Source of the DNA: Chrysochromulina tobinii
Lineage: Eukaryota > Haptophyta > Prymnesiales > Chrysochromulinaceae
Direction of reading: 5' to 3'
Assembly (NCBI GenBank): GCA_001275005.1
Contig: JWZX01003063.1
Span: forward strand, 1-32,425
DNA length: 32,425 bases
In this document: piece by piece, positions 7,942 to 32,336 of the stretch
How positions within the stretch are numbered: the stretch's first letter is position 1
How the letters are laid out: the number at the start of each line of letters is the position of its first letter
Program-made: the position numbers and the translations under genes
Notes under the pieces: model-generated
Databases searched by the model: none
Told to the model about the DNA's origin: nothing
Seen by the model: only the letters and a program-made list of their open reading frames with translations

Positions 7942-9735
7942 ATGCCTCCGCCCCCGCCCCCGCCGCCACCGCCCCCTCCTCCTCCACCACCTCCGCCGCC
8001 ACCGCCACCGCCGCCTCCTCCGCCACCGCCGCCACCACCGGACGAGCCGGCACCTTCCTCTTCCGCGATTCCCGGACCAGCACCCTTCAACTTCAAAACA
8101 AAGAAGAGCTTCGGGTTCAAACTCGGCGGCGGCAGTGCACGCCCCAAAGCCACCCCCGCCGGCATCTTCTCCCAGGACTCCGGGCGTGAGAGTCCAGAGC
8201 CGGAAGTGGAATCCTCTTCGACTGCGCAGCAGCGGGCACCCGCGTTGCCTCGAGCAGCACTATCGGCAGCGAGCTCATCTGGATCAGTGCCGTACATGCC
8301 GCCACCGAGCGGCCTTGCTGCGGCTCAGGCAGTTGCCCAACGGCTCTCACAGAATTTCGCAGAGCGGCCGACCGCTGGTGCTGTGCAGCCGTCAGAACCG
8401 GTGCCATTGGCGGAGCCCGAGCCGGCTGAGGGCGACGGAGAGAGCCTCTGCGATGCTGCGGTCCCGATGGAGGTGTCACGAAACGGCTACACGTTTTGCA
8501 AGAAGTACAATCGTGCCCATCACGTGCGCATCCCTGACACGCAAGGCCTCCAGTCGATTGATCGGTACGAGAATCTCGGACTGGTGGGCCGAGGCGCCTT
8601 CAACAAGATCTACAAGGCACGCCACCGCGAGACGGGCGAGGTGGTGGCCCTCAAGGCGATGCAGCTCGCGGCGCTCGAGCAATCGGGGCACGTGCAGGGT
8701 GACGAAGGCGTGGCGCTCGAGATGATGCGGGAGATGTCCATCTTGCTCTCCATACGCCATCCCAACATTGTCACAGTGCACGAGGTCGTCATGGATCCCA
8801 CCCAAATGTTCCTCGTCATGGAGCTCGTCGATTTCGATCTTGGCTTGCTCCTCGAGCACATGAAGCAACCTTTTAGTGAGGCGCAGGTCAAATGCCTCGC
8901 CATGCAGCTGCTTTCGGCGCTCTCTGCCGTCCACGAGTGCTTCGTCTTACACAGGTGCGCGCCGCCCGATTCTTTCGCCCGACCGTCATGCACGCTGCTC
9001 ACACGTGCTTGGTGCGCTGCTGGTCCCAGGGATCTGAAGCCAACTAACCTGCTACTGGACAAGAATGGTGTCCTCAAGCTCTGCGACTTCGGCCTGGCGC
9101 GGCGGTGCTCTGGCTTCGGCAAAGCCTGCACGCCGAACGTCACCTCCCTGTGGTATCGAGCGCCCGAGATCCTGCTCGGCGAGACGGTCTACGGCTCGGC
9201 CGTCGACATGTGGTCATTTGGCTGCATCTTTGCCGAGTGGCTCCAGCTAGGCGAGCCTCTCGTCCAAGGTACCGGTGAGATCGACCAGATCAACTCTATC
9301 TTCAAATTGGTAGGCACGCCGTCGGAGTACTCGTGGCCCAAGTTCCCGAGCTTACGCGCAGTGCAGGCAGCGCTCCTCCCTTTCGTCGACTGCCACACGA
9401 TCTCGCTCGGCCCAGATGGCTCGCTGGTCAAGCTTCCGAAGAGCTCGCTGCGTAAAAAGTTTCCCGCCGAGGGGTTCACACCAGATGCAGCTAGCCCCGC
9501 ACAGCAGCAGCAGCAGCCGCAGCCGCAGCCGCAGCAGCCGCAGCCGCAGCAGCAGCCGCGCAGGACAGCGCTCTCGGACTGCGGTTTCGAGCTGCTCAGC
9601 TCGGCGTTAACTTGCGATCCTGAGCAGCGCGTCACCGCTGGAGCGGCGTTGGAGCATGCGTGGTTCAAGGAGGAGCCGTTGCCAGTGCCCTTGTCGCGCT
9701 CCGAGATCCGGGCAAATGCGCCGCAATCGCGATGA
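7942..9735 (+). CDS. CDK10/CDK11-type cyclin-dependent kinase
   Basis: The open frame spans 597 codons, 572 residues after removal of an inferred intron at 8955-9029. The N-terminus has 32 consecutive prolines and then a disordered stretch to about 205. The kinase domain follows: glycine loop GRGAFNKIYK (216-225), catalytic lysine K238, a PITSLRE-equivalent helix GVALEMMREM (256-265), HRD split by the intron, DFG at 382-384 (unspliced numbering) and a T-loop ending VTSLWYRAPE. EIDQINSIFKLVGTPSE and the tail (FxLLxxxLTxxPxxR, HxWFKExPLP) match CDK11 and CDK10 best. Members act in transcription and pre-mRNA splicing. A Gln/Pro-rich insert (QP repeats, 9502-9558) interrupts the C-lobe. Coding-like sequence continues in another frame after the stop, so the 3' end is uncertain. 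Confidence 0.85.
   Translation: MPPPPPPPPPPPPPPPPPPPPPPPPPPPPPPPPDEPAPSSSAIPGPAPFNFKTKKSFGFKLGGGSARPKATPAGIFSQDSGRESPEPEVESSSTAQQRAPALPRAALSAASSSGSVPYMPPPSGLAAAQAVAQRLSQNFAERPTAGAVQPSEPVPLAEPEPAEGDGESLCDAAVPMEVSRNGYTFCKKYNRAHHVRIPDTQGLQSIDRYENLGLVGRGAFNKIYKARHRETGEVVALKAMQLAALEQSGHVQGDEGVALEMMREMSILLSIRHPNIVTVHEVVMDPTQMFLVMELVDFDLGLLLEHMKQPFSEAQVKCLAMQLLSALSAVHECFVLHRCAPPDSFARPSCTLLTRAWCAAGPRDLKPTNLLLDKNGVLKLCDFGLARRCSGFGKACTPNVTSLWYRAPEILLGETVYGSAVDMWSFGCIFAEWLQLGEPLVQGTGEIDQINSIFKLVGTPSEYSWPKFPSLRAVQAALLPFVDCHTISLGPDGSLVKLPKSSLRKKFPAEGFTPDAASPAQQQQQPQPQPQQPQPQQQPRRTALSDCGFELLSSALTCDPEQRVTAGAALEHAWFKEEPLPVPLSRSEIRANAPQSR
7945..8040 (+). repeat. Polyproline-encoding CCN repeat
   Basis: Thirty-two consecutive CCN codons using mixed third bases encode 32 prolines directly after the initiator Met of the CDK gene. 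Mixed synonymous codons argue against recent pure triplet expansion. Confidence 0.9.
8955..9029 (+). other. Inferred 75-nt stopless intron in the CDK gene
   Basis: The donor ACAG|GTGCGC and the acceptor GTCCCAG|GGATCTG bound 75 nt, a multiple of three without a stop codon. Splicing rebuilds the R codon of the catalytic H-R-D-L-K-P-T-N motif exactly. Unspliced, 25 residues would separate R from D. Support is strong because the flanking kinase motif becomes perfect. Confidence 0.9.
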
Positions 9736-16581: not shown

Positions 16582-17385
16582 CTATTCCGTGTCCATGGCG
16601 CCCTCGGCGGGCGCCTCGGCAGGCGGCGCCTCCTCAGGGGCAGCCTCCTCCATTGGGGGCCCGCCCGGGGTGCCCTTGACTGCGTCGACGTACGGCGCAA
16701 TCGTCTCGTCCTCGAGGATGGTGAACCCTCCCTGCAGGCCGCAGTAGCCGACGGCAACGTTGGCGGCCGTGAGCTCCTGGCCTGTGCTCAGGGTCTCCCG
16801 CAGGGCGAGCAGCGCGTGCTTGATGAGGTCGTCGAGTCCGAGCTCGGGGAATTCCTCAAAGTGCTTCTCGAGGTAGGTGCGCCCCGCCTGCGAGCGCGCG
16901 CCGATGGCCATCGCCTTGTACTCAAAGTACTGCCCCGACGGCTGCGTCTCGAACAGGTGCGGCCCCGTTCCGTCCGAGCCAACGACGAGCAAGCCCACGC
17001 CGTACGGCCGACGGCCGACCTGCTGCGTGCCGATCTGCGACTTGTCGGCGACCTGAACGACGAGCCGGCCCACCTGCATCGGCGCGTCGTACACGTAGCG
17101 GTGGTTGATGCACTCGGTGCGCATGTACTTGGCAATCACGCGCGCATCGGCGACGAGGCCCGCAATGCCAATGCCCATATTGTCATCGATCTTGAAAATC
17201 TTCTTCTGGTATGAGGAGAGCTCGCTTGAAGAGCGCTTAAGCGTGGCGACGAGGGCAAATGCGTTCGAGCGCAGCCCAATCGCCGCGCTGCCCTGTTTAA
17301 CTGCCTCCATAGCATACTCGATCTGGTGGATGCGCCCCGCGGGTGACCATGTGATGCAGTCGGTATCGTACTGGTTGCGGAACAT
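16582..17385 (-). CDS. PSMA1: 20S proteasome subunit alpha type-1 (alpha-6)
   Basis: A 267-residue protein from the ATG at 17385. It begins MFRNQYDTDCITWSPAGRIH, the alpha-subunit N-terminal signature, followed by QIEYAMEAVKQGSAAIGL, RRPYGVGLLV, MAIGARSQAGRTYLE and the KHALLALRETL block typical of PSMA1. Alpha subunits form the outer, non-catalytic rings of the 20S proteasome and gate the channel. The acidic Glu/Ala/Pro-rich C-terminal tail (about 235-267) is also typical of this subunit. The frame stays open upstream to 17547, but those residues have no family match and are taken as 5' UTR. It is divergent from SGT1, with 319 bp between starts. Confidence 0.95.
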   Translation of the reverse strand: MFRNQYDTDCITWSPAGRIHQIEYAMEAVKQGSAAIGLRSNAFALVATLKRSSSELSSYQKKIFKIDDNMGIGIAGLVADARVIAKYMRTECINHRYVYDAPMQVGRLVVQVADKSQIGTQQVGRRPYGVGLLVVGSDGTGPHLFETQPSGQYFEYKAMAIGARSQAGRTYLEKHFEEFPELGLDDLIKHALLALRETLSTGQELTAANVAVGYCGLQGGFTILEDETIAPYVDAVKGTPGGPPMEEAAPEEAPPAEAPAEGAMDTE

Positions 17386-17704
17386 GGCGGGGAACGAGGC
17401 GGCGACTAGGAAGACTGCTGCGCAACGATCGGGCAAGGTACACGTCAGCGGACGCGGAGGTCGCGCAGAGTTCGCAAGCGTGTGTGCGTGCGTGCGCGCG
17501 CGCCGCGCCGCATGGCCTACGGTCGCGGCGCCGATGACTCGAGTCACAGCTCAACGGATCTGTGAATATTTCGTACAGTCGACTGTACCCCTGCAAATTG
17601 AGTGCCACGCAACGATCAGGATTGTCGCGTCTGTCGAATTAACGTTCTCACACACGCGTCGCGTTGGGCGCCCTTTCTTTTCTAGAAGCCGAAATCGCGC
17701 GTCC
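17386..17704. promoter_or_regulatory. Divergent promoter region of PSMA1 and SGT1
   Basis: These 319 bp separate two divergent starts and hold no separate gene. Both flanking frames remain open across it by chance, as expected in GC-rich DNA. Two protein-quality-control genes therefore probably share regulatory sequence; no specific motif could be assigned. Confidence 0.5.
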
Positions 17705-18787
17705 ATGGAGTTCGGGAACGCTGCATTCGTCGACGAGGAGTACGAGACGGCGATCAGCCACTACAGCAAGGCGATCGCGGCCAACCCTGAGGATGCCGAC
17801 GCCTTCTCCAAGCGCGCGGCGGCGCACCTGCGCCTCAAGCGCTACACCGAGGCCGTCTCCGACGCGACGCTCTCTGTCAAGCTGCTTGCGACACCCAAGG
17901 CCTTCCAGCGCAAGGGGCAGGCATCGTTCGCGCTGGGCGAGTACGAGGCGGCACGCGCCGCGTTTGCCAAGGCGCTCGAGCTCAGCGGCGACGGCCGCGA
18001 GCTGAAACGGTGGATGCGCAAGTGCGACGCCGAGATTGCACTTGAGAAGGCGCCGCCGACACCCGTGCCGCTCGCGCCCGCCCCGCCGTCGACGACGGCC
18101 AACCCAGCCGCTCCCGCGCCCTCCGCGGCACCCGCCGCGCCCGCTCCCACCTCCGACCCGAGCAAGATCCGGCACGAGTGGTACCAGACTCAGAGTGAGG
18201 TGGTCGTCTCCGTGCTCGCACGCAACGTATCGCCAGAGAAGGTGCAGGTGGACTTCCACGAGGCGGAGGTCGACGTGTCCATCAAGCTCGAGAGCGGCGC
18301 CGAGTATATTCACACCTTCAGCCTATTCCACAAGATCGTGCCCGAACAGAGCAAGTATAGCGTCGGCGCCTCCAAGATCGAGCTCAAGCTGAAGAAGCAC
18401 ACAATGGGCAAGTGGGAGACCCTAGAGGGCTCGGGCGACGCGGAGGTGATTGCGGGGGCACTCAACGCCGAGCCAGCGGTGGCGGATGAAGCGCTCAAGC
18501 CGGCCTCCAAGAAGGTGTATTCGGGGAGCAGCAAGGACTGGGACGCCGTCGAGTCCAAGCTCAAGAAGGAGGAAGAGGACGAGAAGCCCGAGGGCGAGGA
18601 GGCGCTCAATAAGCTCTTCCGCGACATCTACGGCCGCTCTGACGAGACGACGCGCCGCGCGATGAACAAATCATTCCAGACCTCGGGTGGCACTGTGCTC
18701 TCGACCAACTGGAAGGAGGTTGCCGAAAAAGATTACGAAAAGGATCGCTCCGCGCCTGACGGCCAGGAGTGGAAGAAGTGGGGCTAG
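17705..18787 (+). CDS. SGT1: SGT1 (SUGT1) HSP90 co-chaperone
   Basis: A 360-residue protein from the ATG at 17705. It shows the full SGT1 layout: TPR domain (about 3-115), Pro/Ala linker (117-150), CS domain (154-243, RHEWYQTQSEVVVSVLARNV) and SGS domain (271-360, ending in WKKWG). The SGS core includes LNKLFRDIYGRSDETTRRAMNKSF-type sequence. SGT1 works with HSP90 (through CS) and SCF ubiquitin ligases (through SKP1), and in plants supports NLR immune receptors. The frame remains open to 17105 antisense to PSMA1, but that part is not SGT1-like and is excluded. Length and domain order are normal. Confidence 0.95.
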   Translation: MEFGNAAFVDEEYETAISHYSKAIAANPEDADAFSKRAAAHLRLKRYTEAVSDATLSVKLLATPKAFQRKGQASFALGEYEAARAAFAKALELSGDGRELKRWMRKCDAEIALEKAPPTPVPLAPAPPSTTANPAAPAPSAAPAAPAPTSDPSKIRHEWYQTQSEVVVSVLARNVSPEKVQVDFHEAEVDVSIKLESGAEYIHTFSLFHKIVPEQSKYSVGASKIELKLKKHTMGKWETLEGSGDAEVIAGALNAEPAVADEALKPASKKVYSGSSKDWDAVESKLKKEEEDEKPEGEEALNKLFRDIYGRSDETTRRAMNKSFQTSGGTVLSTNWKEVAEKDYEKDRSAPDGQEWKKWG

Positions 18788-19155: not shown

Positions 19156-22100
19156 TCATTTCGATTTCCTAATGAAGATGCTGGGCCCAGGTTCTGCGAA
19201 GCTGACGACAGCTGGACCTGCAGGCGCCGGTGGCTCGGGGGCGGCGGCATGGTTCGCCACCTTGGTGGCGGACGGCGCTCCCTCAACCGCCTCGTGCTCG
19301 TCGAACGCACGCTCCCCCTTCCACATCTTGAAGCCCCCCACCAGCCGCGTAAGAAGGGGGCGCTTCTTGCTGTGCCCATGGCCGCTGAGGTGGCCACGCC
19401 AGTGGCGGTTGCGCAGGAAGTCGACAATGTCACGAGCAAGCTCCTTCTCAAGGTACTTGGGCTGTCGGAGCTTGGTGTACTCGACGGTCTTCGCGTGGAT
19501 GAGCGCCTCAGTCATCTTGGACGCTAGCGCCACCTCCTTGGCCTTGCCTTCGATGGCAAGGAGCGCCGGCTGAAAGATGCCGTGGAGCGCCTCGGTGTCG
19601 CGCACCTGCGGCTCGACCACGCACAGGAAAGAGCATAGGTTAGGCTGCTCGACGAGCGCCTCGAAGACAGCGGCTGCGCCCTCGGCGGAAGCAAGCACGC
19701 AGTATGCAAAGTGTTTGCCACAGCTTTTGATGACGTCCGCCAGGAAGTCGGAGGTGGCGATCGGATCTTCGGCCTTGCGACGCGCCTGCAAGCTGGCCCG
19801 CGAGGCACCAAAGCCCGGAAGGTCGATTGCCACGTGAAAGAAGTCGATGGGCTCGTCGCACCCCTTACCAGTGTTGAGCTCCTCGAGGAAAGCCCTCCGT
19901 GGGCCCGCAGGCGCCTCAGGGCCAACGAGCTCGACCATCTGCCCGTACAGCGCACTCACCACGTGGTCGGCCCCTTTCGAAGCCGATTGCAGCAGCAGTG
20001 TGGGGGTCTTCTCCTTGGGCGCCAAGTCGATCGAGGGCGGCACGCGAAGAGGTGCCCCTGCTGCCATCACCAACGAAGGTACGATAGGAGGCGCAGCCAA
20101 AGCTGATGAAAAGGGTGGCGGCGGCGCTGGTGCCTGTGGGGGCTGCGGGGGCTGCGGGGCCCGCGCTGCAGCTGCGGATGCACTACGGCCCACGCTACCG
20201 TTGCCGCTGCCGCTGCCGCTGCGTGGCGGTGCTCGTGGTGACGCCGAGTGACGACGTGCTGAGCTCTGCCCGGATACGGGTGGGCGCTGTTTGGTTCGGT
20301 TGGAGGTGCGACCTGCACGAGGTGATGGTGGGCGTGATAGCGGCGGGCGCGAGCTACTCGTCTTCGGGCTTGCAGGCGCAGCAGTAGCCCCCCCGCTAGG
20401 CGGTAATGTGGCAGGTCCTGGCAGTATGGTGGTGGCACTGGGCTCGGACGTAACAACGGGATCAGGCGGCGGCGATGGTGGGTTGATGCGGTCTGGGCTG
20501 CGGCTACGGCTGCGGCTGCGGCTGTGACTCGCATCGGGCGGCGAAAGCGGCGAAGGTGGTGATGGCGGTGATGGCGGCGATGGCAGCGATGTCGGCGATG
20601 GCGGCGAAGGCGGAGGCCATGTTCCAGATAGTGGCCGATGCTGCGGCTGCGGTTGTGGCTGCGGCTGCTGCCGTGCACCGCCCACTGCAGCGCTCGGTGC
20701 GAGCAGACGGGCGGCCTCGGGCAGAGCAGGAGCAGGCAGGGACGCACTCTGGCTCTTGGGCACTGCGCTGGTCGTCTTCGGACCGCAGCTCGATCGTGAT
20801 CGAGCTGCAGTCATGCTGGCGCTCTGCCCAGCGCCTGCGATGCTGCCGCCACCGACGCAGCCACTGCCTCCGCCGCCGTTCACAGCTGCGACAGAAGCAA
20901 ATGCGCTCGGTGGTGCTGCTGGCCCAACCCGTGCCAGAGGATCGTCGGGCACAGCGGCGGCACGAGAATGTGCCCGTTTGGCTGCGTGCACCAACGGCAG
21001 CGCTTCCCCTGCGGCGACCGCAGCCGCAGCCGCTGCAGCGGAGGTGAGCGGTGCGCCGACACTCGCCGCCAGCGCCAGCTTGATCTGCGCCTCGCCGATT
21101 GAGCCAATGCTCCGGCTGGCTGCTTTCGTAGCGTCAACCCCGGACACTGCAAGCCGAGTGGCGGCCAACTCGGTGGGCGCCACAATGAGGTTCGCATTTT
21201 TGGCCCCTAGTGGCGGCGCGGCGGCACCAACGGTGACGCGGGCGCTCGTGCCGACCAGTTTGGAGTGCCCGCGCCCGAGGTACGATACCCATCCCGATAA
21301 CTCCTGGCCGCGCCGCTCCGCGTACGTGACCGGGGCGGCGTGGCCGAGCTCCTTGTCGCGCCTAACCGGCAGCTCCGATGGCAGCTGAACGACGATGTGA
21401 CGAGCAAACACACCCGAGGTCTCACGACCAAGCGTCTCACGACCAAGCTTGTGGACGATCTGAAGCGGCGCCACGCCTATCTCGGCGCCCCAGTGCACTC
21501 GAATGTGCACGGTCGCGCCTCGGCGCATCGGGCGCGTGAATATGTAGTCGACGCGCTGATCACTCACCTTCGAAGGCTGCGTGAGCGCCACAGTGCTGTC
21601 CGCGTCGTCGGTCGACTCGGGGTTGTAATTGAGCACCACCTCAGCAATGATCGAGTTTGGCGCGTCGTCGAGTTGCTGCGTACAGTCGCAGCCACGATGG
21701 ACGAGCGTGCCACCTTTGGCCCTGAGCAGCCCGACGAAGATGCTCGCCTTGGTGCGTTGGCGCGGCGTCGAGTCTCCAGCACCCGCGAGCGTCGAGCCAA
21801 ATTCGATCACGAGCCGCAAGCTGCTGCGCCGTTCCGCTTCGTGCTCGTCGAGGCGTGCGCGCCAAGCGGTGACCATCAGCGGCTCGTCACGGAGCGTCTC
21901 CATACGCACGCACATCGCCTTGTCGTGCTCGCTGTCGCACTCGGGCGCGCCATTGGGCGTGGCGCACACGGGGCAGACTCGGTGGTACAGGATGGAGCGC
22001 TCGACACAAAGGGCGCAGAGCACGTGCCGGCAGGCCACAAGCCTTGTCGGCCGCAACAGTGGCGATTTACACAAGGAGCAAAGCGTCTGCGCGAGCTCGC

Positions 22101-23892
22101 GCTGTCGCCGGAGCAGAGCCTTCGCCAGCTTGCCTCGCAGCACGGCGAAGCGGTCGTCGTAGTCGTCCTCATCGCGGCCCTCAGCGCCCTCATCGTTTGC
22201 CACAACGTCCTTGCCCCTGCCTTCCTTGCCCCTCTTGCCCTCAACCCCGCCCTCCGCCGCACCCGCCGCCTTGTCGCCCGCTCCGCTGCTGCCGCTCGCC
22301 GCGGTGCCCTTGGCCTTGCCACCCTTAGCTTCCCCCTTTGCGTCCTGGTTGGGCTCGCCCTTCATCTCCTTGAGGACTCCCTTGCGCCCGAGCAGTGCGT
22401 TCGCATGGCTCTCCCGCTTCGCGATGGACAGGTTGGTCACGAGGCTGTTCCAGGCCATCGACGTCTGGCCGGCACCGTGCACGTAGAGCATGAGTGGGTT
22501 GGCCGGGTCGCCGCACGTGCGCGCAAAGACGGAGCCCATCCGGATCTGTACCGTCTCGGCGCGCCGGTTCATGTCGTCGTCCTCGTCGAATTGGTCATTA
22601 GCCATCGGGCTCGCGGCGGCGATCGCCTTGTGCTCCTCCGTCACTACCGTCTCCTCAAAGGCGTCGCCCTCGAGCAAGGCGTCGTTGTTGCTCTCCTCAA
22701 GGCGTGCAGTGCGTCGCGCGTACTCGAGCGTGCATTTGGTCTCATGCGCGAACGCCGAGTTTGGCGAGATGCAGCATAACATCTCGGTCAGGCACGGCTT
22801 GTCGCCACCGAGCACGCTAGAGAGGAGCTGAGTCACCACCGAATCTCGGTAGGGCACGTGGGCTGCCTTGTCACTCATGGCCATCAGCACGCGGCCGAGC
22901 GCGACGAGGCCCGCGTTGATGCCGCGCAGAGGCTGATCGTCTTGATACCGGAATGTCTCGCTGCCAGCCAGGTCAATCATGTAAAAATTGGACGTCGTCT
23001 TTTCGGACTCGGCGAGGCCGTCCTTTATTTGTTCGCGCGTCGTCGCGCCGCGCTTGGACTGGCTCCGCTCGAGGATGAGCTGAAGGAAGCAGTGCGAGCG
23101 CGACGAGTGCTCGTGCATCAGATTGGCTGCCGTTGTGCGTGTGGCCATGCCGCGCTCAATGGTGTGAGTGAGCGAGCGGCTGCTGTAGATGCGTTCGATC
23201 CTGTTGCCAAGCAAGCTGCTGCCTAACAATCCGCACTGCGGCTGGTTGCCCTCCTTGTCCGAGGGCGCGAGCAGGTCGTAAATGTTCTTCCCCTGGATCT
23301 CGACGAGAGTCGCGAAGAGAGCAAACTTGACCATGCCCACCGTGTCCTTCTCGATGGCCATGGTCCGCCGGAATAGCTCGGAGACAGTTGCTGGCACCAC
23401 ACCGTCGAGTTTGCTTGGGTTCTTTCCGCCCTCTGCGCCATACATGGAGAAGGTCTTTCCCGCACCCGTCTGGCCGTAAGCGAAGAGCAGCGAGTCGCGG
23501 CCCTTGAGTGCAGATTCGATCATCGGCACGCCGCAGGACAGGTACACCTCGTGCTGCGTGCAACTGGGCCCTAGCACCACGCCAAATTTGGACTCCTCCT
23601 TGGAAGGCTTGTGCACCTCCAAATACCCGCCAACGTGAGGCTCGCAGCGGATGTGGTTATCTTCATTGCTATTAGGTGGGCGCACACGGCAAATAACACG
23701 AGTGACGTTGTTGATGTAGGCGTACGGGTCTCGTGCTGAAGTAGGGCGTGAGGCAGGTGGTGACGCCGGCCGTGAGGAAGGTCGAGAGGGCGGTCGAGAG
23801 CCAGGAGGGGACGTTGGCCCGGAGGCTGGACGAGAGGTTGATGCGGGCGAAAGGCGGTCAAATAGCGTCGTGGACCGGGGCAATGCGGGCAT
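19156..23892 (-). CDS. Kinesin motor fused to split alpha/beta-hydrolase with RING insert
   Basis: An uninterrupted 1578-residue frame. Residues 1-55 are Pro/Ser/Arg-rich. The kinesin motor spans about 60-400, with P-loop GQTGAGKT (140-147), switch I HEHSSRSH (260-267, with His where Asn is usual) and switch II DLAGSE (307-312). Residues 450-490 match the start of an alpha/beta-hydrolase (LMLYVHGAGQTSMAWNSL, oxyanion HG). The hydrolase resumes only at about 1346-1495: FFHVAIDLPGFGAS, nucleophile elbow LASAEGA (S1402), final helix DIVDFL. About 855 residues lie between: a charged linker, a C3HC4-like RING (605-643), a beta-rich region faintly YEATS-like (690-840) and a Pro/Ser/Ala-rich segment (1040-1295). 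It predicts a microtubule motor with possible ubiquitin-ligase function. No coiled coil is evident, and stopless introns within the low-complexity part cannot be excluded. Confidence 0.8.
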   Translation of the reverse strand: MPALPRSTTLFDRLSPASTSRPASGPTSPPGSRPPSRPSSRPASPPASRPTSARDPYAYINNVTRVICRVRPPNSNEDNHIRCEPHVGGYLEVHKPSKEESKFGVVLGPSCTQHEVYLSCGVPMIESALKGRDSLLFAYGQTGAGKTFSMYGAEGGKNPSKLDGVVPATVSELFRRTMAIEKDTVGMVKFALFATLVEIQGKNIYDLLAPSDKEGNQPQCGLLGSSLLGNRIERIYSSRSLTHTIERGMATRTTAANLMHEHSSRSHCFLQLILERSQSKRGATTREQIKDGLAESEKTTSNFYMIDLAGSETFRYQDDQPLRGINAGLVALGRVLMAMSDKAAHVPYRDSVVTQLLSSVLGGDKPCLTEMLCCISPNSAFAHETKCTLEYARRTARLEESNNDALLEGDAFEETVVTEEHKAIAAASPMANDQFDEDDDMNRRAETVQIRMGSVFARTCGDPANPLMLYVHGAGQTSMAWNSLVTNLSIAKRESHANALLGRKGVLKEMKGEPNQDAKGEAKGGKAKGTAASGSSGAGDKAAGAAEGGVEGKRGKEGRGKDVVANDEGAEGRDEDDYDDRFAVLRGKLAKALLRRQRELAQTLCSLCKSPLLRPTRLVACRHVLCALCVERSILYHRVCPVCATPNGAPECDSEHDKAMCVRMETLRDEPLMVTAWRARLDEHEAERRSSLRLVIEFGSTLAGAGDSTPRQRTKASIFVGLLRAKGGTLVHRGCDCTQQLDDAPNSIIAEVVLNYNPESTDDADSTVALTQPSKVSDQRVDYIFTRPMRRGATVHIRVHWGAEIGVAPLQIVHKLGRETLGRETSGVFARHIVVQLPSELPVRRDKELGHAAPVTYAERRGQELSGWVSYLGRGHSKLVGTSARVTVGAAAPPLGAKNANLIVAPTELAATRLAVSGVDATKAASRSIGSIGEAQIKLALAASVGAPLTSAAAAAAAVAAGEALPLVHAAKRAHSRAAAVPDDPLARVGPAAPPSAFASVAAVNGGGGSGCVGGGSIAGAGQSASMTAARSRSSCGPKTTSAVPKSQSASLPAPALPEAARLLAPSAAVGGARQQPQPQPQPQHRPLSGTWPPPSPPSPTSLPSPPSPPSPPSPLSPPDASHSRSRSRSRSPDRINPPSPPPDPVVTSEPSATTILPGPATLPPSGGATAAPASPKTSSSRPPLSRPPSPRAGRTSNRTKQRPPVSGQSSARRHSASPRAPPRSGSGSGNGSVGRSASAAAARAPQPPQPPQAPAPPPPFSSALAAPPIVPSLVMAAGAPLRVPPSIDLAPKEKTPTLLLQSASKGADHVVSALYGQMVELVGPEAPAGPRRAFLEELNTGKGCDEPIDFFHVAIDLPGFGASRASLQARRKAEDPIATSDFLADVIKSCGKHFAYCVLASAEGAAAVFEALVEQPNLCSFLCVVEPQVRDTEALHGIFQPALLAIEGKAKEVALASKMTEALIHAKTVEYTKLRQPKYLEKELARDIVDFLRNRHWRGHLSGHGHSKKRPLLTRLVGGFKMWKGERAFDEHEAVEGAPSATKVANHAAAPEPPAPAGPAVVSFAEPGPSIFIRKSK

Positions 23893-26933: not shown

Positions 26934-29900
26934 TCAATGCACGGCCTTCGCGCGAGGTACGCCTGCACGCTCGTCGAGCTCATCAAGGGCCTGGTGCGCA
27001 GCGGTCATGACGAAGCCACCACACATGTGCGAAGCGACGACTGCGAGGACGCACACCCAGAAGCCATCATTCAGTGTGGTCTGCACGCCGAAGCACGAGG
27101 CTTCGCCGGGCAGCAGCGAGCCGATCGAGTCATAGTGCTCGAGCATCTCGTTGAGGCTATCGCACTCGGAGCCCAGGATGAACTTGGCGACCTGGTCGAT
27201 CTCGAGCAGCGAGATGGCAATCACGACGAGCATCACGTCTAGCGACGCCCACGCGTAAACCGTCTCGGCGAAGACGAGCATCGAGCGCAGCGTGTCCGGG
27301 CGCATCGGCACAAGCCAGATGATGAGTGCAAGCACGATCCAGAGCAGCGGCAGCACGAGGCACAAGATGGCGTAGAATCCCGTGAGCCCCCAGAGGGCAA
27401 GCGGGGCGGTCTCCGACGAGACCGTCCCCACCTTACTCGCGAGCTGCACGAGCGAGAAATCCGTGTTGGCGTCCTTACCGAGTAAGGCGCCAATCAAGCC
27501 CACCACGTGCAGCGTGAAGTTGGTCATGCCGACCGCCACGCACGTGAGGAACTCGCACGCGAGTAGCCCAAGGGGCACGCCAAAACGCACCCACAACGAG
27601 AACGGCAGCGCGGGGCCGGTGCGCTTCCAGATCAGCCACGGGCCCGAAGCCTCGTACGACAGTCGGCTCACGCAGATGCGCTCCAACGACGGCGCGCGGC
27701 TCGATCCGCCCAAGCGACGGGGGGTAGGAACGCCACCCAAAATAGGAACGCGGGCCTCGCCGAGATGATCAGAGCCGAATGAGCCAGTGCCCAGCGTGGT
27801 GGGCGCGTTCTCGAGGGCGGCGGTCCGGGATGAAGCAGCCCAAGAGCGATCCTCAGTGAAATGGAGAGCGAGGCGGTGATAGTACATCTGGACGTGCGTC
27901 ATCGTGAGCGAGAGCAGCGTGGCAAGAGCGAAGAGGCCAAAGCCGATCTCGGGTGTGGTCTCGACCGACGCGACGACGAGCGCGGGCGCGTCGTGTTTGC
28001 CGCTGATCACGATCGTGAAGTGCATGGCGATCATGAGCAGGATGAGCATGGCGCTGTCGACCAGGCACCACTTGCCCGTCGCGTCCAGCACACGCAGCAC
28101 GGCGCCACGCGAGCGCGGCGAGAAGCGGCGAGGTGGCACCCACCATAGGAACATCATCAAGATGAGCTTCAAGTATGTCCAAATGCCTGAGCAGATGACG
28201 ATGATGATGGCGAGCCAGTACGCCTTCGACTTCCAAAAGTCGCTGACCGAGTTGAAGAGGGTGAAGTCGAAGATGGTGGGCATGGGCACGGGTTGCCCCG
28301 CAATCGTGAGCACCACGTGCACCGCAGCGCCCACCTGCACGTTGCCCCACAGAAACATCCCCCCGTTGAGCAGCAGTACGAGCGTGAAGCTCACACGCGC
28401 GACGCCGCAGGCGTGCTGTGCGAGGCAGTCGTCTAAGCTCGGCGCGGGGCGGCCGAAGAGGTAGCTGCCGAGTGGTTGCCCCTTCTTGGCACGGATGGGC
28501 TCGTCGGGCTCGTCCACGGGCGCGGCACGGAGCGAATCGGGGCACGCGGGCAGCGGCTGCAGATCACTGCCGGGGGGCGTGCTCGTGCGCGGCGGTGTGC
28601 TGCCCTCGCTCCCGCCGCCGAGGGTCTCGGAGCCCGAGGACGGCGCGAGCATGCTCTCGTTGGAGAGGGCAGAGCTGCCATCCGAGACGGTGCGCGTGTG
28701 CGCCGCTGCCCGACGCGCCGCCTTGGGCGACGCGTCGTTGGCTTGACCCTCTTCAACGGTCACTCGCAGCTCCTCCATCTCCGGCGACTCGAAGAAGAGC
28801 GTGAAGCACCAGCACGTGGCCACGATCAGCAGCACGCACCCGACGATGCCAAGGAAGGCGACGATGCCTTCGGTGACCGCCGAGATGGGCGGCGATGATG
28901 CGGGCGCCGGGGCGGGCGGCGGGGGTGCGTTTATGGCGCCGCGGGCGATGTTGCATGAGGCGTGCGCGTCGTCAAAGAGATGCGAGAGCTTGCGCTTGTT
29001 GAGAATGTCGATGACCACCGCCCCCAAATGGGGAGGGATATTCGTGTAGTGAACGCGCGAGAAGGGCAGCGGCGGTGGCGGTGGCACGTCGCTCGGCGGC
29101 AGCGGCGGCGCGCCCGGCGGCGGCGCCGCTCGTAGACCGAGCTCGAGGAAGCCGTCGCCGCGCACGTCGAAGCTGAAGCCCGTCGAGTCGGGGTCGAGCA
29201 ACGTGGCGTTGAGCGGCAGCAGGAAGCAGCGCGAGCCGCGGGTGGTGAGCGAGCTGAGCGAGAGCATCTCGTACGCGCTCAGGTCGACGTACACGAGCAT
29301 GCCGAGCCCGATGAGCAGCTGGCGAATCTCGATCTCGAGATCGAACCCTGTCCACACGCCCGCGAGGCGCAAGTGAAGTTTGGCGGACACGCCTAGCGAG
29401 CCGTGCTCTCCGAGCCCGAGGCCGCTCGTGAGTGCCTCGGGGTGCTCAGGCTCCTCGCCCACGGCGAGCACCTTGAGACCGTAGAGCTGGTCGAGACCCG
29501 AGAACATGATGTTCGAGAGCGAGACGGCGACATCGCCGATGATCTCGTTGGAGAAGCGTAAGGAGATCGCGCTGAACGGGATGGTGCCGTTGGGGAAGGG
29601 GCCCTCGATCCAAGGGTGGATCTTAGCGGAGGGCTGCCACCGGAGGCTCGCCCACTTGCGGAGGGCACGGTCGACGGCCTGGTTGAGATCCGCATCGGTG
29701 ATGTGCGAGAGCGTCGTGTTGAGCCAGCCCAGCAGCCTGGACTCGTTCCAGGGGCGGTAGTGCGGCGGCTTGGAGGGGCGCAAGGGAGGCTCGGGGGCAT
29801 AGGGGCACTTAGGCACGTGATCCAGCCAACTCGAGGCCGCCACGTTGACTCGCGTCTCGATGGCGCGTAGCAGCGACTGGGGCACCACGGCCGCGGCTTT

Positions 29901-32336
29901 GGGTGCCACCTCTGCGGTGATGCCGTCGGGCTCAGCTGCGCCCCACTCGTTTCCCCACACGCTCAAGTTGAGCTGCCGCGAGTCCAAGCTGAGGCTCGAG
30001 ATCTCGATCCGCTTGATCTGGTGCAGCAGGCAGTCTGGCTCACCCCACGAGAGCAGCGGCATGTGCACGAAGCCGCTGCGGTTGAGCTCGAGGCGCCACA
30101 GAGCGAGGAAGCTCACGTTGCTCGCACTGACGCTCAGGTTGAAAGCAATTGGAGGCGCGCCGGGCGCGCTCGGCCTGAGGCGCACGCCCAGCCGCATCGC
30201 GAGCAGATCGGCGGCGACGTAAGAGACGAGCGCCGCGGGGTCGTCGTTGGGCGACACGGGCGGCATACCAGCGACCTCGAGCAACTCGGCGAGGCCAGGA
30301 GTGAAAGCACCGCCCTCTGGCGTGGAGGAGAGCTGTGCCGTGGTCCAGTCCCACGACGAGTCCCACGACTCACGCGGCCCGAGCGTCGGGCCGGGCCCGT
30401 AGACCAGCCCCGCGGCTTGTGCCGCCACCGCGCCGATCGCGAAGGAGCGCCCAAAGATGTCGTCAGCCTCGACCGCAGCCGCAGCCGCCGCGGCGATCAC
30501 TGGCGACCCCTCGGCAGGCGGCACCTCGAGGGGCTTCAACGCGCTGATGGTGTCGAGGCCATCGAGCTCGAGCTCGAGCTCGAGCGGCAGCTCGAGACCG
30601 AGCAGCCTCGACACATTGACGCGCAGCGTGCCGTTGCCCGAGTTTGGCAGCTTGTCGAGCAGCCAATCGATCACGCCATCAAGTCCCTCGGGACCTAGCT
30701 TGTCCACGAGCCCCTCAGCCGCACGGCGCAGCGTTGAGTTCTTCCAGTCGAGCGTGCCCGGAGGCGCCGGCGGCGGCGGCCTCGGAGGGCTCGGTGGCGG
30801 GCGCGGCGGCGGAGCGGCTGGGCAGGGTTTGCCTCCGAGCAGCGACGATAGTCCCTCGACGAGCGTCGTATTGAGCGCATCGCGCACCGGGCCGCCGACG
30901 ATCGAGTCGGAGAGGCGCGGCACGAGAGTGGGGAAGCCGCTGAAGATGAGAGCCATCGCGTTATCGAGTAGCCGGTCGACCTGTGCCTCCAGCGGGAAGC
31001 CCGTGAAGTCGTGGAAGTTGATGTCGCCTATGCTCACGTTGAGCGCCATGCTCGGCACGCCTGTCTGGGGCGTGAGACCGTGGGTAGCTGGCAGCATGAG
31101 CGCGTAGTGGAGCATGCATCGGCCATCGAGCGCGCTGGGCTGCTGGAGCGTCTCGATGAAGGTCTGGTTCACGCCCAGAAGCAGCTCCACGCGCAAGGCC
31201 ATCTCGGAGAGACGCAGCACCACCTCAACGACCTCATCGAGGTCATCATCATTGCTCAGCAGCCCGCCGGGCACCGGCGCCACGTGCAGCCGCAGCCGCA
31301 GCCGCAGCCGCACGTCTTGCCACGCGAGCGCCACGTCGAGCGCATGGGCCGTGCGGGCGTCGGGCTCGAGCAGCGAGAGCTCACGCACGTGGTCGAGCCC
31401 CTCGAGCGTCGCGCTCAGCGCTGCGATGCTAATGTTCACCAGCGAGAGGTTGCCCAGCGCGATCGGACGATCGCCGCTCGCGAAGGTCAGGTTGCTGCGC
31501 GTGAGGTTGCCGCCGCCCGTGGCGAGCTTCACAAGCCCGGCGATACCAAGCGGCCCAGAGGCGCCGACGACGTCGTTGAGCACGTAGTCAATCGCCCCGA
31601 GCGCCGCCGAGTCTGGCCAGGACACGAGCTTTGTGGGCGGCGGTGGCAGCGCCGGCTCCGGAAGCGGCGTGGGCCATGGAAAGTTGTCGTTGATCATGTG
31701 GTCAAGCTTCTCGAGCGCGCTCGTGAGCGTTGATCCGAGGCCCTCGAGCGCCTGTTTGAGCGCGGCGGGCACCTTGGCCTTGATCACGCTCTCCAGCGCA
31801 GCGTCGATCGCGCCTTTGAGGTACCTAAGAGCCCCCTCAAACTCCAGGTCGATGACGAGCTTGGGCAGATCGACCTTGCTGACCTGGATGGCCGCCGCAG
31901 CGGGAAGCCCTCCCGCGTCGGTGAGTGCGAGGCTAAATTCCAGCGTCAGGCCGAGGTCCACCGCTAGAGATGCGTCGATGCTCACCGTCGGCAGCGACGG
32001 GAAGCCGTGGTGCTCGAGCTTGAGGTTTACGTGTGTTGCGGAGCAGTTTAGGATGAGATTGTCCAGACCAATTGCGAGCTCTGGCCTCACGCCTAATGTG
32101 ACAGCCGAGCCGAGCTTGCCAATCTGCAGCCCACCGCACTTGAGGCCCTTGACGTCCACGAACGCTTGGTAGCCACCTCCCACGTCGAGGGGTCCGATGT
32201 CAATCGGCCCCGGGATGCTGAAGGTGGACACGCACAGCCAGCCGGCCGCACCGCCGACACCCTTGGGGCATGGGGTCGGCGCGCCGTCCACCAGCGCCGC
32301 GAGCAGCGCAAGCGGCGCGATCAAAGAGCTCGGCAT
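26934..32336 (-). CDS. Secretory membrane protein: TULIP/BPI-like ectodomain plus tandem PqiA-like modules
   Basis: An uninterrupted 1800-residue frame. Residues 1-19 are a signal peptide. The ectodomain (about 20-1150) has alternating hydrophobic beta strands, many N-x-S/T sites and recurring segments of the form N-x-x-x-x-G-L-D-x-L followed by L-x-L-x-L strands (about 296-350 and 928-990), resembling TULIP/BPI lipid-binding domains. Proline-rich linkers lie at 505-527 and 1071-1091. One membrane helix (1154-1182) precedes a cytosolic Ser-rich linker (1183-1310). Two homologous four-helix modules follow (about 1312-1490 and 1583-1785), each with the PqiA pattern of a helix, a conserved W-x-x-x-K-L-type helix, then GKWCLVD / YAWASLD before a third helix. 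Bacterial PqiA works with PqiB/PqiC in intermembrane lipid transport, so lipid transfer is inferred. Membrane topology is predicted by eye. Confidence 0.7.
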   Translation of the reverse strand: MPSSLIAPLALLAALVDGAPTPCPKGVGGAAGWLCVSTFSIPGPIDIGPLDVGGGYQAFVDVKGLKCGGLQIGKLGSAVTLGVRPELAIGLDNLILNCSATHVNLKLEHHGFPSLPTVSIDASLAVDLGLTLEFSLALTDAGGLPAAAAIQVSKVDLPKLVIDLEFEGALRYLKGAIDAALESVIKAKVPAALKQALEGLGSTLTSALEKLDHMINDNFPWPTPLPEPALPPPPTKLVSWPDSAALGAIDYVLNDVVGASGPLGIAGLVKLATGGGNLTRSNLTFASGDRPIALGNLSLVNISIAALSATLEGLDHVRELSLLEPDARTAHALDVALAWQDVRLRLRLRLHVAPVPGGLLSNDDDLDEVVEVVLRLSEMALRVELLLGVNQTFIETLQQPSALDGRCMLHYALMLPATHGLTPQTGVPSMALNVSIGDINFHDFTGFPLEAQVDRLLDNAMALIFSGFPTLVPRLSDSIVGGPVRDALNTTLVEGLSSLLGGKPCPAAPPPRPPPSPPRPPPPAPPGTLDWKNSTLRRAAEGLVDKLGPEGLDGVIDWLLDKLPNSGNGTLRVNVSRLLGLELPLELELELDGLDTISALKPLEVPPAEGSPVIAAAAAAAVEADDIFGRSFAIGAVAAQAAGLVYGPGPTLGPRESWDSSWDWTTAQLSSTPEGGAFTPGLAELLEVAGMPPVSPNDDPAALVSYVAADLLAMRLGVRLRPSAPGAPPIAFNLSVSASNVSFLALWRLELNRSGFVHMPLLSWGEPDCLLHQIKRIEISSLSLDSRQLNLSVWGNEWGAAEPDGITAEVAPKAAAVVPQSLLRAIETRVNVAASSWLDHVPKCPYAPEPPLRPSKPPHYRPWNESRLLGWLNTTLSHITDADLNQAVDRALRKWASLRWQPSAKIHPWIEGPFPNGTIPFSAISLRFSNEIIGDVAVSLSNIMFSGLDQLYGLKVLAVGEEPEHPEALTSGLGLGEHGSLGVSAKLHLRLAGVWTGFDLEIEIRQLLIGLGMLVYVDLSAYEMLSLSSLTTRGSRCFLLPLNATLLDPDSTGFSFDVRGDGFLELGLRAAPPPGAPPLPPSDVPPPPPLPFSRVHYTNIPPHLGAVVIDILNKRKLSHLFDDAHASCNIARGAINAPPPPAPAPASSPPISAVTEGIVAFLGIVGCVLLIVATCWCFTLFFESPEMEELRVTVEEGQANDASPKAARRAAAHTRTVSDGSSALSNESMLAPSSGSETLGGGSEGSTPPRTSTPPGSDLQPLPACPDSLRAAPVDEPDEPIRAKKGQPLGSYLFGRPAPSLDDCLAQHACGVARVSFTLVLLLNGGMFLWGNVQVGAAVHVVLTIAGQPVPMPTIFDFTLFNSVSDFWKSKAYWLAIIIVICSGIWTYLKLILMMFLWWVPPRRFSPRSRGAVLRVLDATGKWCLVDSAMLILLMIAMHFTIVISGKHDAPALVVASVETTPEIGFGLFALATLLSLTMTHVQMYYHRLALHFTEDRSWAASSRTAALENAPTTLGTGSFGSDHLGEARVPILGGVPTPRRLGGSSRAPSLERICVSRLSYEASGPWLIWKRTGPALPFSLWVRFGVPLGLLACEFLTCVAVGMTNFTLHVVGLIGALLGKDANTDFSLVQLASKVGTVSSETAPLALWGLTGFYAILCLVLPLLWIVLALIIWLVPMRPDTLRSMLVFAETVYAWASLDVMLVVIAISLLEIDQVAKFILGSECDSLNEMLEHYDSIGSLLPGEASCFGVQTTLNDGFWVCVLAVVASHMCGGFVMTAAHQALDELDERAGVPRAKAVH

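Follow-up and report, generated by a model that had tools for sequence, protein, structure and literature searches.

Within a window of 32,425 nucleotides of the Chrysochromulina tobinii genome (contig JWZX01003063.1)—the whole stretch of DNA analysed here—we describe a minus-strand gene for a kinesin whose tail carries an interrupted alpha/beta-hydrolase core. The protein runs from a kinesin motor through the first third of the hydrolase core to a RING finger, a predicted YEATS fold and a long flexible linker, followed by the rest of the core and a basic tail. It probably belongs to a conserved and, it appears, undescribed family of kinesins, in which a non-catalytic hydrolase scaffold with a RING-YEATS insert would place ubiquitin at a site defined by microtubules. 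A preliminary description of the gene, made from the sequence alone, had recognised the kinesin motor, two complementary hydrolase pieces and a RING finger in the insert between them; all three are borne out below, and the motifs that it had placed (P-loop, switches, HGAGQTSMAWN, RING, DLPGFGAS and elbow) were located in the frame. The YEATS fold and the loss of the catalytic triad were not among its observations.

Relatives and motor domain

The genome is 53 Mb in size and yielded 130 matches to the kinesin domain, with exon pieces counted separately; because it also yielded 58 chlorophyll-binding-protein matches, we read the source as a photosynthetic eukaryote. Besides two paralogues in the same genome, on contigs C1396 and C75, protein searches gave 20 different relatives (P0001–P0020) among the matches listed (4, 4 and 15). 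Most are fragments on short contigs and several are redundant: the C1396 paralogue includes all of P0003, P0002 is 95.3% identical to P0003, P0018 is 99.8% identical to the window protein, and P0015 and P0017 have a common tail. P0002, P0003/C1396 and the window gene have the order complete from motor to tail; P0001 is missing only its motor and the first part of the N-terminal hydrolase half (N-half). The window protein and its C1396 paralogue are 64% identical in the motor, 60% in the N-half, 81% in the RING, 50% in the beta domain that follows it, 27% in the linker, 46–48% in the C-terminal hydrolase half (C-half) and 72% in the tail.

Among the 4, 4 and 15 matches listed, in searches to which length limits applied and two of which scored the 8000 best candidates, there was neither a kinesin with an intact hydrolase nor a stand-alone hydrolase of this type, and none of the relatives listed lacked the insert. 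The genome itself held no relative beyond the two paralogues, other rows being weak (two with the C-half and four with the N-half/RING/YEATS query), and there was none among 344 pattern matches in viral contigs. Two side observations concern single relatives. The C-half of P0001 has two in-frame stretches missing from its relatives, possibly unspliced introns, with none in the window gene; and P0018 (62 member sequences) departs abruptly from the window protein past the YEATS fold, which may reflect a contig end, a chimera or a splice form.

The motor matched Pfam PF00225 with an expectation value (E) of 5.7e-62 and 210 bits, against a cut-off of 29.3, and its nucleotide motifs are intact: P-loop GQTGAGKT at amino acids (aa) 140–147, switch I SSRSH at 263–267 and switch II DLAGSE at 307–312. 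The loop following DLAGSE departs from the usual kinesin pattern, so the motor may bind microtubules in an atypical way. A small tree was built with kinesins from elsewhere in the genome, six of the eight loci tried giving sequence; in it P0002 and both paralogues grouped with the window gene in a single clade on a long branch.

A predicted split hydrolase core

The first hydrolase motif, HGAGQTSMAWN (aa 472–482), is separated by 874 residues from DLPGFGAS (aa 1357–1364), with the elbow ASAEG at aa 1401–1405. The core motifs stand in order: strand 3 with HG, strand 4 with DxxGxG, the elbow and later strands. The NCBIfam model BchO (TIGR03056) matched the two halves consecutively, the N-half at model positions 19–54 and the C-half at 55–107. 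Its E-values were 0.0053 and 0.097 for the N-half and C-half alone, 2e-4 for the whole protein and 3.7e-6 for the joined halves, which were matched in three of five members.

Profile alignment separates the natural arrangement of the halves from the alternatives. With 20 family rows against hydrolase templates from the same genome (L009, L010, L019, L020 and L021), hhalign scored 36.7 for the N-half alone (template positions 14–47), 47.3 for the C-half alone (50–140) and 69.2 for the halves joined in natural order (probability 96.4, P 1.2e-9); swapped, they scored 47.9, barely above the C-half alone. Column-shuffled versions of the joined profile reached at most 18.5 in 60 controls, and seven shuffled sets (including N-half, C-half and joined) at most 20.5 in 25 controls each. 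Against the same templates, the RING, beta-domain and pre-strand-4 regions scored 10.8–12.0, like shuffles. These scores lead us to read the two pieces as complementary portions of a single predicted hydrolase core, interrupted between strand 3 and strand 4.

On sequence grounds this fold appears non-catalytic. The hhalign alignment places Ala at the nucleophile position of the window protein, and the 14 members covering that position have Ala (8), Ser (5) or Gly (1), the misaligned row of P0017 being set aside. The rows shown for the covering members contain no conserved catalytic acid or His, so a Ser-acid-His triad is absent from them.

RING finger and YEATS-like domain

The RING finger has its first Cys at aa 605 and is of the C3HC4 type. 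All eight ligands are present in each of the ten sequences that reach it, which represent eight distinct copies given the redundancy of P0003 and P0018; the other 13 of the 23 scanned are fragments that do not show the RING. Its Pfam score in the window protein, 20.2 bits, lies just under the 21-bit cut-off, and the best E-value in a relative was 1.4e-6. The Leu between the first Cys pair and the Pro in the last pair, typical of RINGs that bind a ubiquitin-conjugating enzyme (E2), are kept in all ten sequences.

Beyond the RING, the AlphaFold 2 (AF2) model had block means of 71–94 over model positions 241–400, bar one block at 55, and the predicted structure of aa 679–841 matched YEATS folds in the PDB with both Foldseek and VIA-align, at 11–16% identity in those rows. 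By this prediction the insert contains a YEATS fold. Sequence profiles did not pick it up: the Pfam YEATS profile matched none of six members at E up to 10 within HMMER’s filters, hhalign of the domain against the genome’s own YEATS protein did no better than shuffles, and a PDB profile search with the beta domain returned chance-level rows.

Proposed mechanism and alternatives

In the mechanism that we favour, the two hydrolase pieces would close into one non-catalytic scaffold, from which the RING-YEATS part would project on a charged linker, the chain returning to the hydrolase core via a flexible linker of ~340 residues. The N-terminal motor would carry or hold this scaffold along microtubules. 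The choice of partner would fall to the YEATS-like face, the pseudo-hydrolase or both, and the RING would recruit an E2, the likely output being a ubiquitin mark placed site-specifically on or near microtubules.

The same protein could instead work as an adaptor, its RING holding partners or dimerising while the kinesin positions the assembly on the spindle or cytoskeleton. A basic residue after the last RING Cys helps ligase activity, and here that residue is Ala in the window protein and Ala, Met or Ser in seven relatives, never basic; moreover, to judge from the titles of the PDB matches, the YEATS domains with solved structures belong to proteins of chromatin and transcription. Against this stand the Leu and Pro typical of E2-binding RINGs, unchanged in all ten sequences, and we consider a pure adaptor possible but somewhat unlikely.

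Several observations weigh against the favoured mechanism. BchO reached 20.5 bits, far under that model’s cut-off of 172.6, and a second model, SglT, which looks unrelated, matched the C-half as well (E 0.011). No Pfam hydrolase profile matched five joined sequences, and Abhydrolase_1 appeared weakly in two of 21 relatives scanned whole (best E 0.0085). A first hhalign test, with five rows against templates L009, L010, L018, L019 and L021, scored 29.2 (probability 55.5) and left the N-half unaligned. PDB profile searches with the joined halves and the C-half gave chance-level rows, among them one hydrolase (1c4x, E 0.52 over the N-half) and, as best row, a Cas3-type protein over the tail (E 0.016–0.06). 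AlphaFold’s predicted local distance difference test (pLDDT) was roughly 30–60 over the hydrolase halves (means 46.7 and 44.2), and the model did not render strand 4 as a strand. Within the family, the P0004 frame lacks the motor and ends before strand 4, and the C75 paralogue, alone among three copies compared, has lost switch I. Nor are the cage residues of YEATS domains evident in the insert.

The low AlphaFold confidence, the weak first profile test and the lost catalytic residues would suit a protein in which the hydrolase halves are relics without a common fold, leaving a kinesin with RING, YEATS and decayed pieces. However, the window protein shares 46–60% identity with the C1396 paralogue in the halves, whereas the linker is just 27% identical, and all 13 members that cover the D-x-x-G-x-G motif following strand 4 retain it; we regard decay of this kind as unlikely.

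In a bolder and improbable version of the favoured scheme, a motor-borne putative ligase would read what it walks on or carries: its YEATS-like domain would recognise an acyl-lysine, such as acetyl-lysine, on tubulin or on cargo, and its RING would ubiquitinate there. The aromatic cage of YEATS domains that binds acyl-lysine, at the positions we presume to form it, was not evident in a weak alignment.

Whether the frame is one gene bears on all these readings. It starts with an ATG at position 23892 and runs for 1578 codons down to 19156, but at 63% GC (guanine plus cytosine) the window also contains long antisense frames, so an open frame alone proves little. The stronger argument for one gene is, at the level of sequence, the domain order conserved in relatives. 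That several genes are read here as one in GC-rich DNA, or that splicing removes part of the frame, could draw on those opposite-strand frames, on the intron-like stretches of P0001 and on the C75 locus (G000:C75:6000-13000), which has all the parts but spread over several frames, the changes of frame lying close to a run of G and a simple repeat, and may be a pseudo-motor, a pseudogene or the product of assembly errors. Yet the one-frame order recurs in P0002 and P0003/C1396 and mostly in P0001 and P0004; conserved blocks tile the whole frame; and the linker is open in six sequences (window, C1396 copy, P0001, P0002, P0004 and P0005), which are partly redundant, P0002 being 95% identical to the C1396 copy. 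We thus reject a fusion of neighbouring genes and hold any such division of the frame to be very improbable, in agreement with the preliminary description, which had argued for one protein and looked to orthologues of equal order; the recurring order and the profile complementarity of the hydrolase pieces both speak for it.

Its further suggestion of a motor delivering a hydrolase-like fold together with a RING ligase did not survive when taken to mean an active hydrolase: although five of 14 members have Ser at the nucleophile, the Ala in the window protein and the unconserved acid and His make it scarcely credible, and we dropped it.

Other features and neighbouring genes

Coordinates are collected in Table 1. 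The linker at aa 951–1290 is presumably disordered. No other part of the C-terminal half is as well conserved as the tail, whose motif WRGHLSGxGHSK..PLLTRLVGG..MW has near-invariant columns in the family alignment and PDB matches at chance level only.

Table 1 Features of the kinesin gene, with positions in the window
Feature	Residues (aa)	Position	Strand	Evidence
Whole coding frame		19156..23892	minus	1578 aa + stop; single exon as read
Kinesin motor domain	64–399	22696..23703	minus	Pfam PF00225, 210 bits; motifs intact
N-terminal part of alpha/beta-hydrolase core (strands 1–3, HGAG, helix A start)	441–495	22408..22572	minus	BchO positions 19–54; hhalign 36.7
Charged low-complexity linker	496–572	22177..22407	minus	Composition; 37–44% identity (measured aa 496–582)
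Conserved helix preceding RING	573–601	22090..22176	minus	67–76% identity (aa 583–603); helix at model 134–162
C3HC4 RING finger	602–646	21955..22089	minus	Pfam 20.2 bits; ligands conserved
YEATS-fold domain (predicted)	679–841	21370..21858	minus	AF2 model; Foldseek and VIA-align against PDB
Conserved region following YEATS fold	842–950	21043..21369	minus	43–67% identity (measured aa 861–950)
Pro/Ser/Ala/Gly/Arg-rich linker	951–1290	20023..21042	minus	72% these residues; 26–30% identity; pLDDT mostly <50
C-terminal part of the core (from DLPGFG of strand 4 through the final helix)	1291–1494	19411..20022	minus	Catalytic residues lost; no profile match over aa 1291–1350
Family-specific tail WRGHLSGxGHSKxRPLLTRLVGGxxMWxG	1495–1530	19303..19410	minus	72% identity with each of three relatives

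Convergent with the kinesin gene lies a plus-strand gene for an SGT1-like co-chaperone with TPR, CS and SGS domains (17105–18787). The window also holds a minus-strand frame of 1800 codons with a PqiA-like domain (26934–32336) and, on the plus strand at 7942–9735, a protein kinase domain match in two stretches, possibly split by an intron or insert.

Comparison with known systems

The preliminary description knew of no kinesin with this layout. That appears to hold for the combination but not for the pairing of motor and RING: plants have RING-HC kinesin-7 proteins (group FHC22), in which a RING-HC finger likewise shares a chain with a kinesin, and the passage on them names no YEATS or hydrolase fold (PMC6118397). 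In their main text, two surveys of kinesin architecture contain neither ‘hydrolase’ nor ‘RING finger’ (PMC1434745, PMC2867816), the former including ‘zinc finger’ among kinesin domains.

No protein combining a YEATS domain with a kinesin was apparent in the open-licence literature, judged from the matches listed. From the YEATS domains of GAS41, Yaf9, AF9 and ENL the predicted domain differs in its low identity (11–16%), in having no Pfam YEATS match or evident cage, and in sharing its chain with a motor and a RING. BchO-type hydrolases (TIGR03056) resemble the present core in that both halves match their model at consecutive positions, but the score is well short of that model’s threshold and the catalytic residues are missing here.

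NDRG1 and GID1 are non-catalytic alpha/beta-hydrolase-fold proteins whose folds are continuous, whereas here the core is broken between strands 3 and 4 by ~800 residues holding two domains. The inserted lids of alpha/beta-hydrolases usually sit later in the fold; the split pseudo-hydrolase would offer a clear example of two domains lodged as one module between strands 3 and 4 of the core. With a YEATS-like domain and a RING on a kinesin, a modification-reader fold, ubiquitin signalling and a motor would be joined in one chain, and it is in this combination, a kinesin with an apparently unrecorded tail, that the novelty lies.
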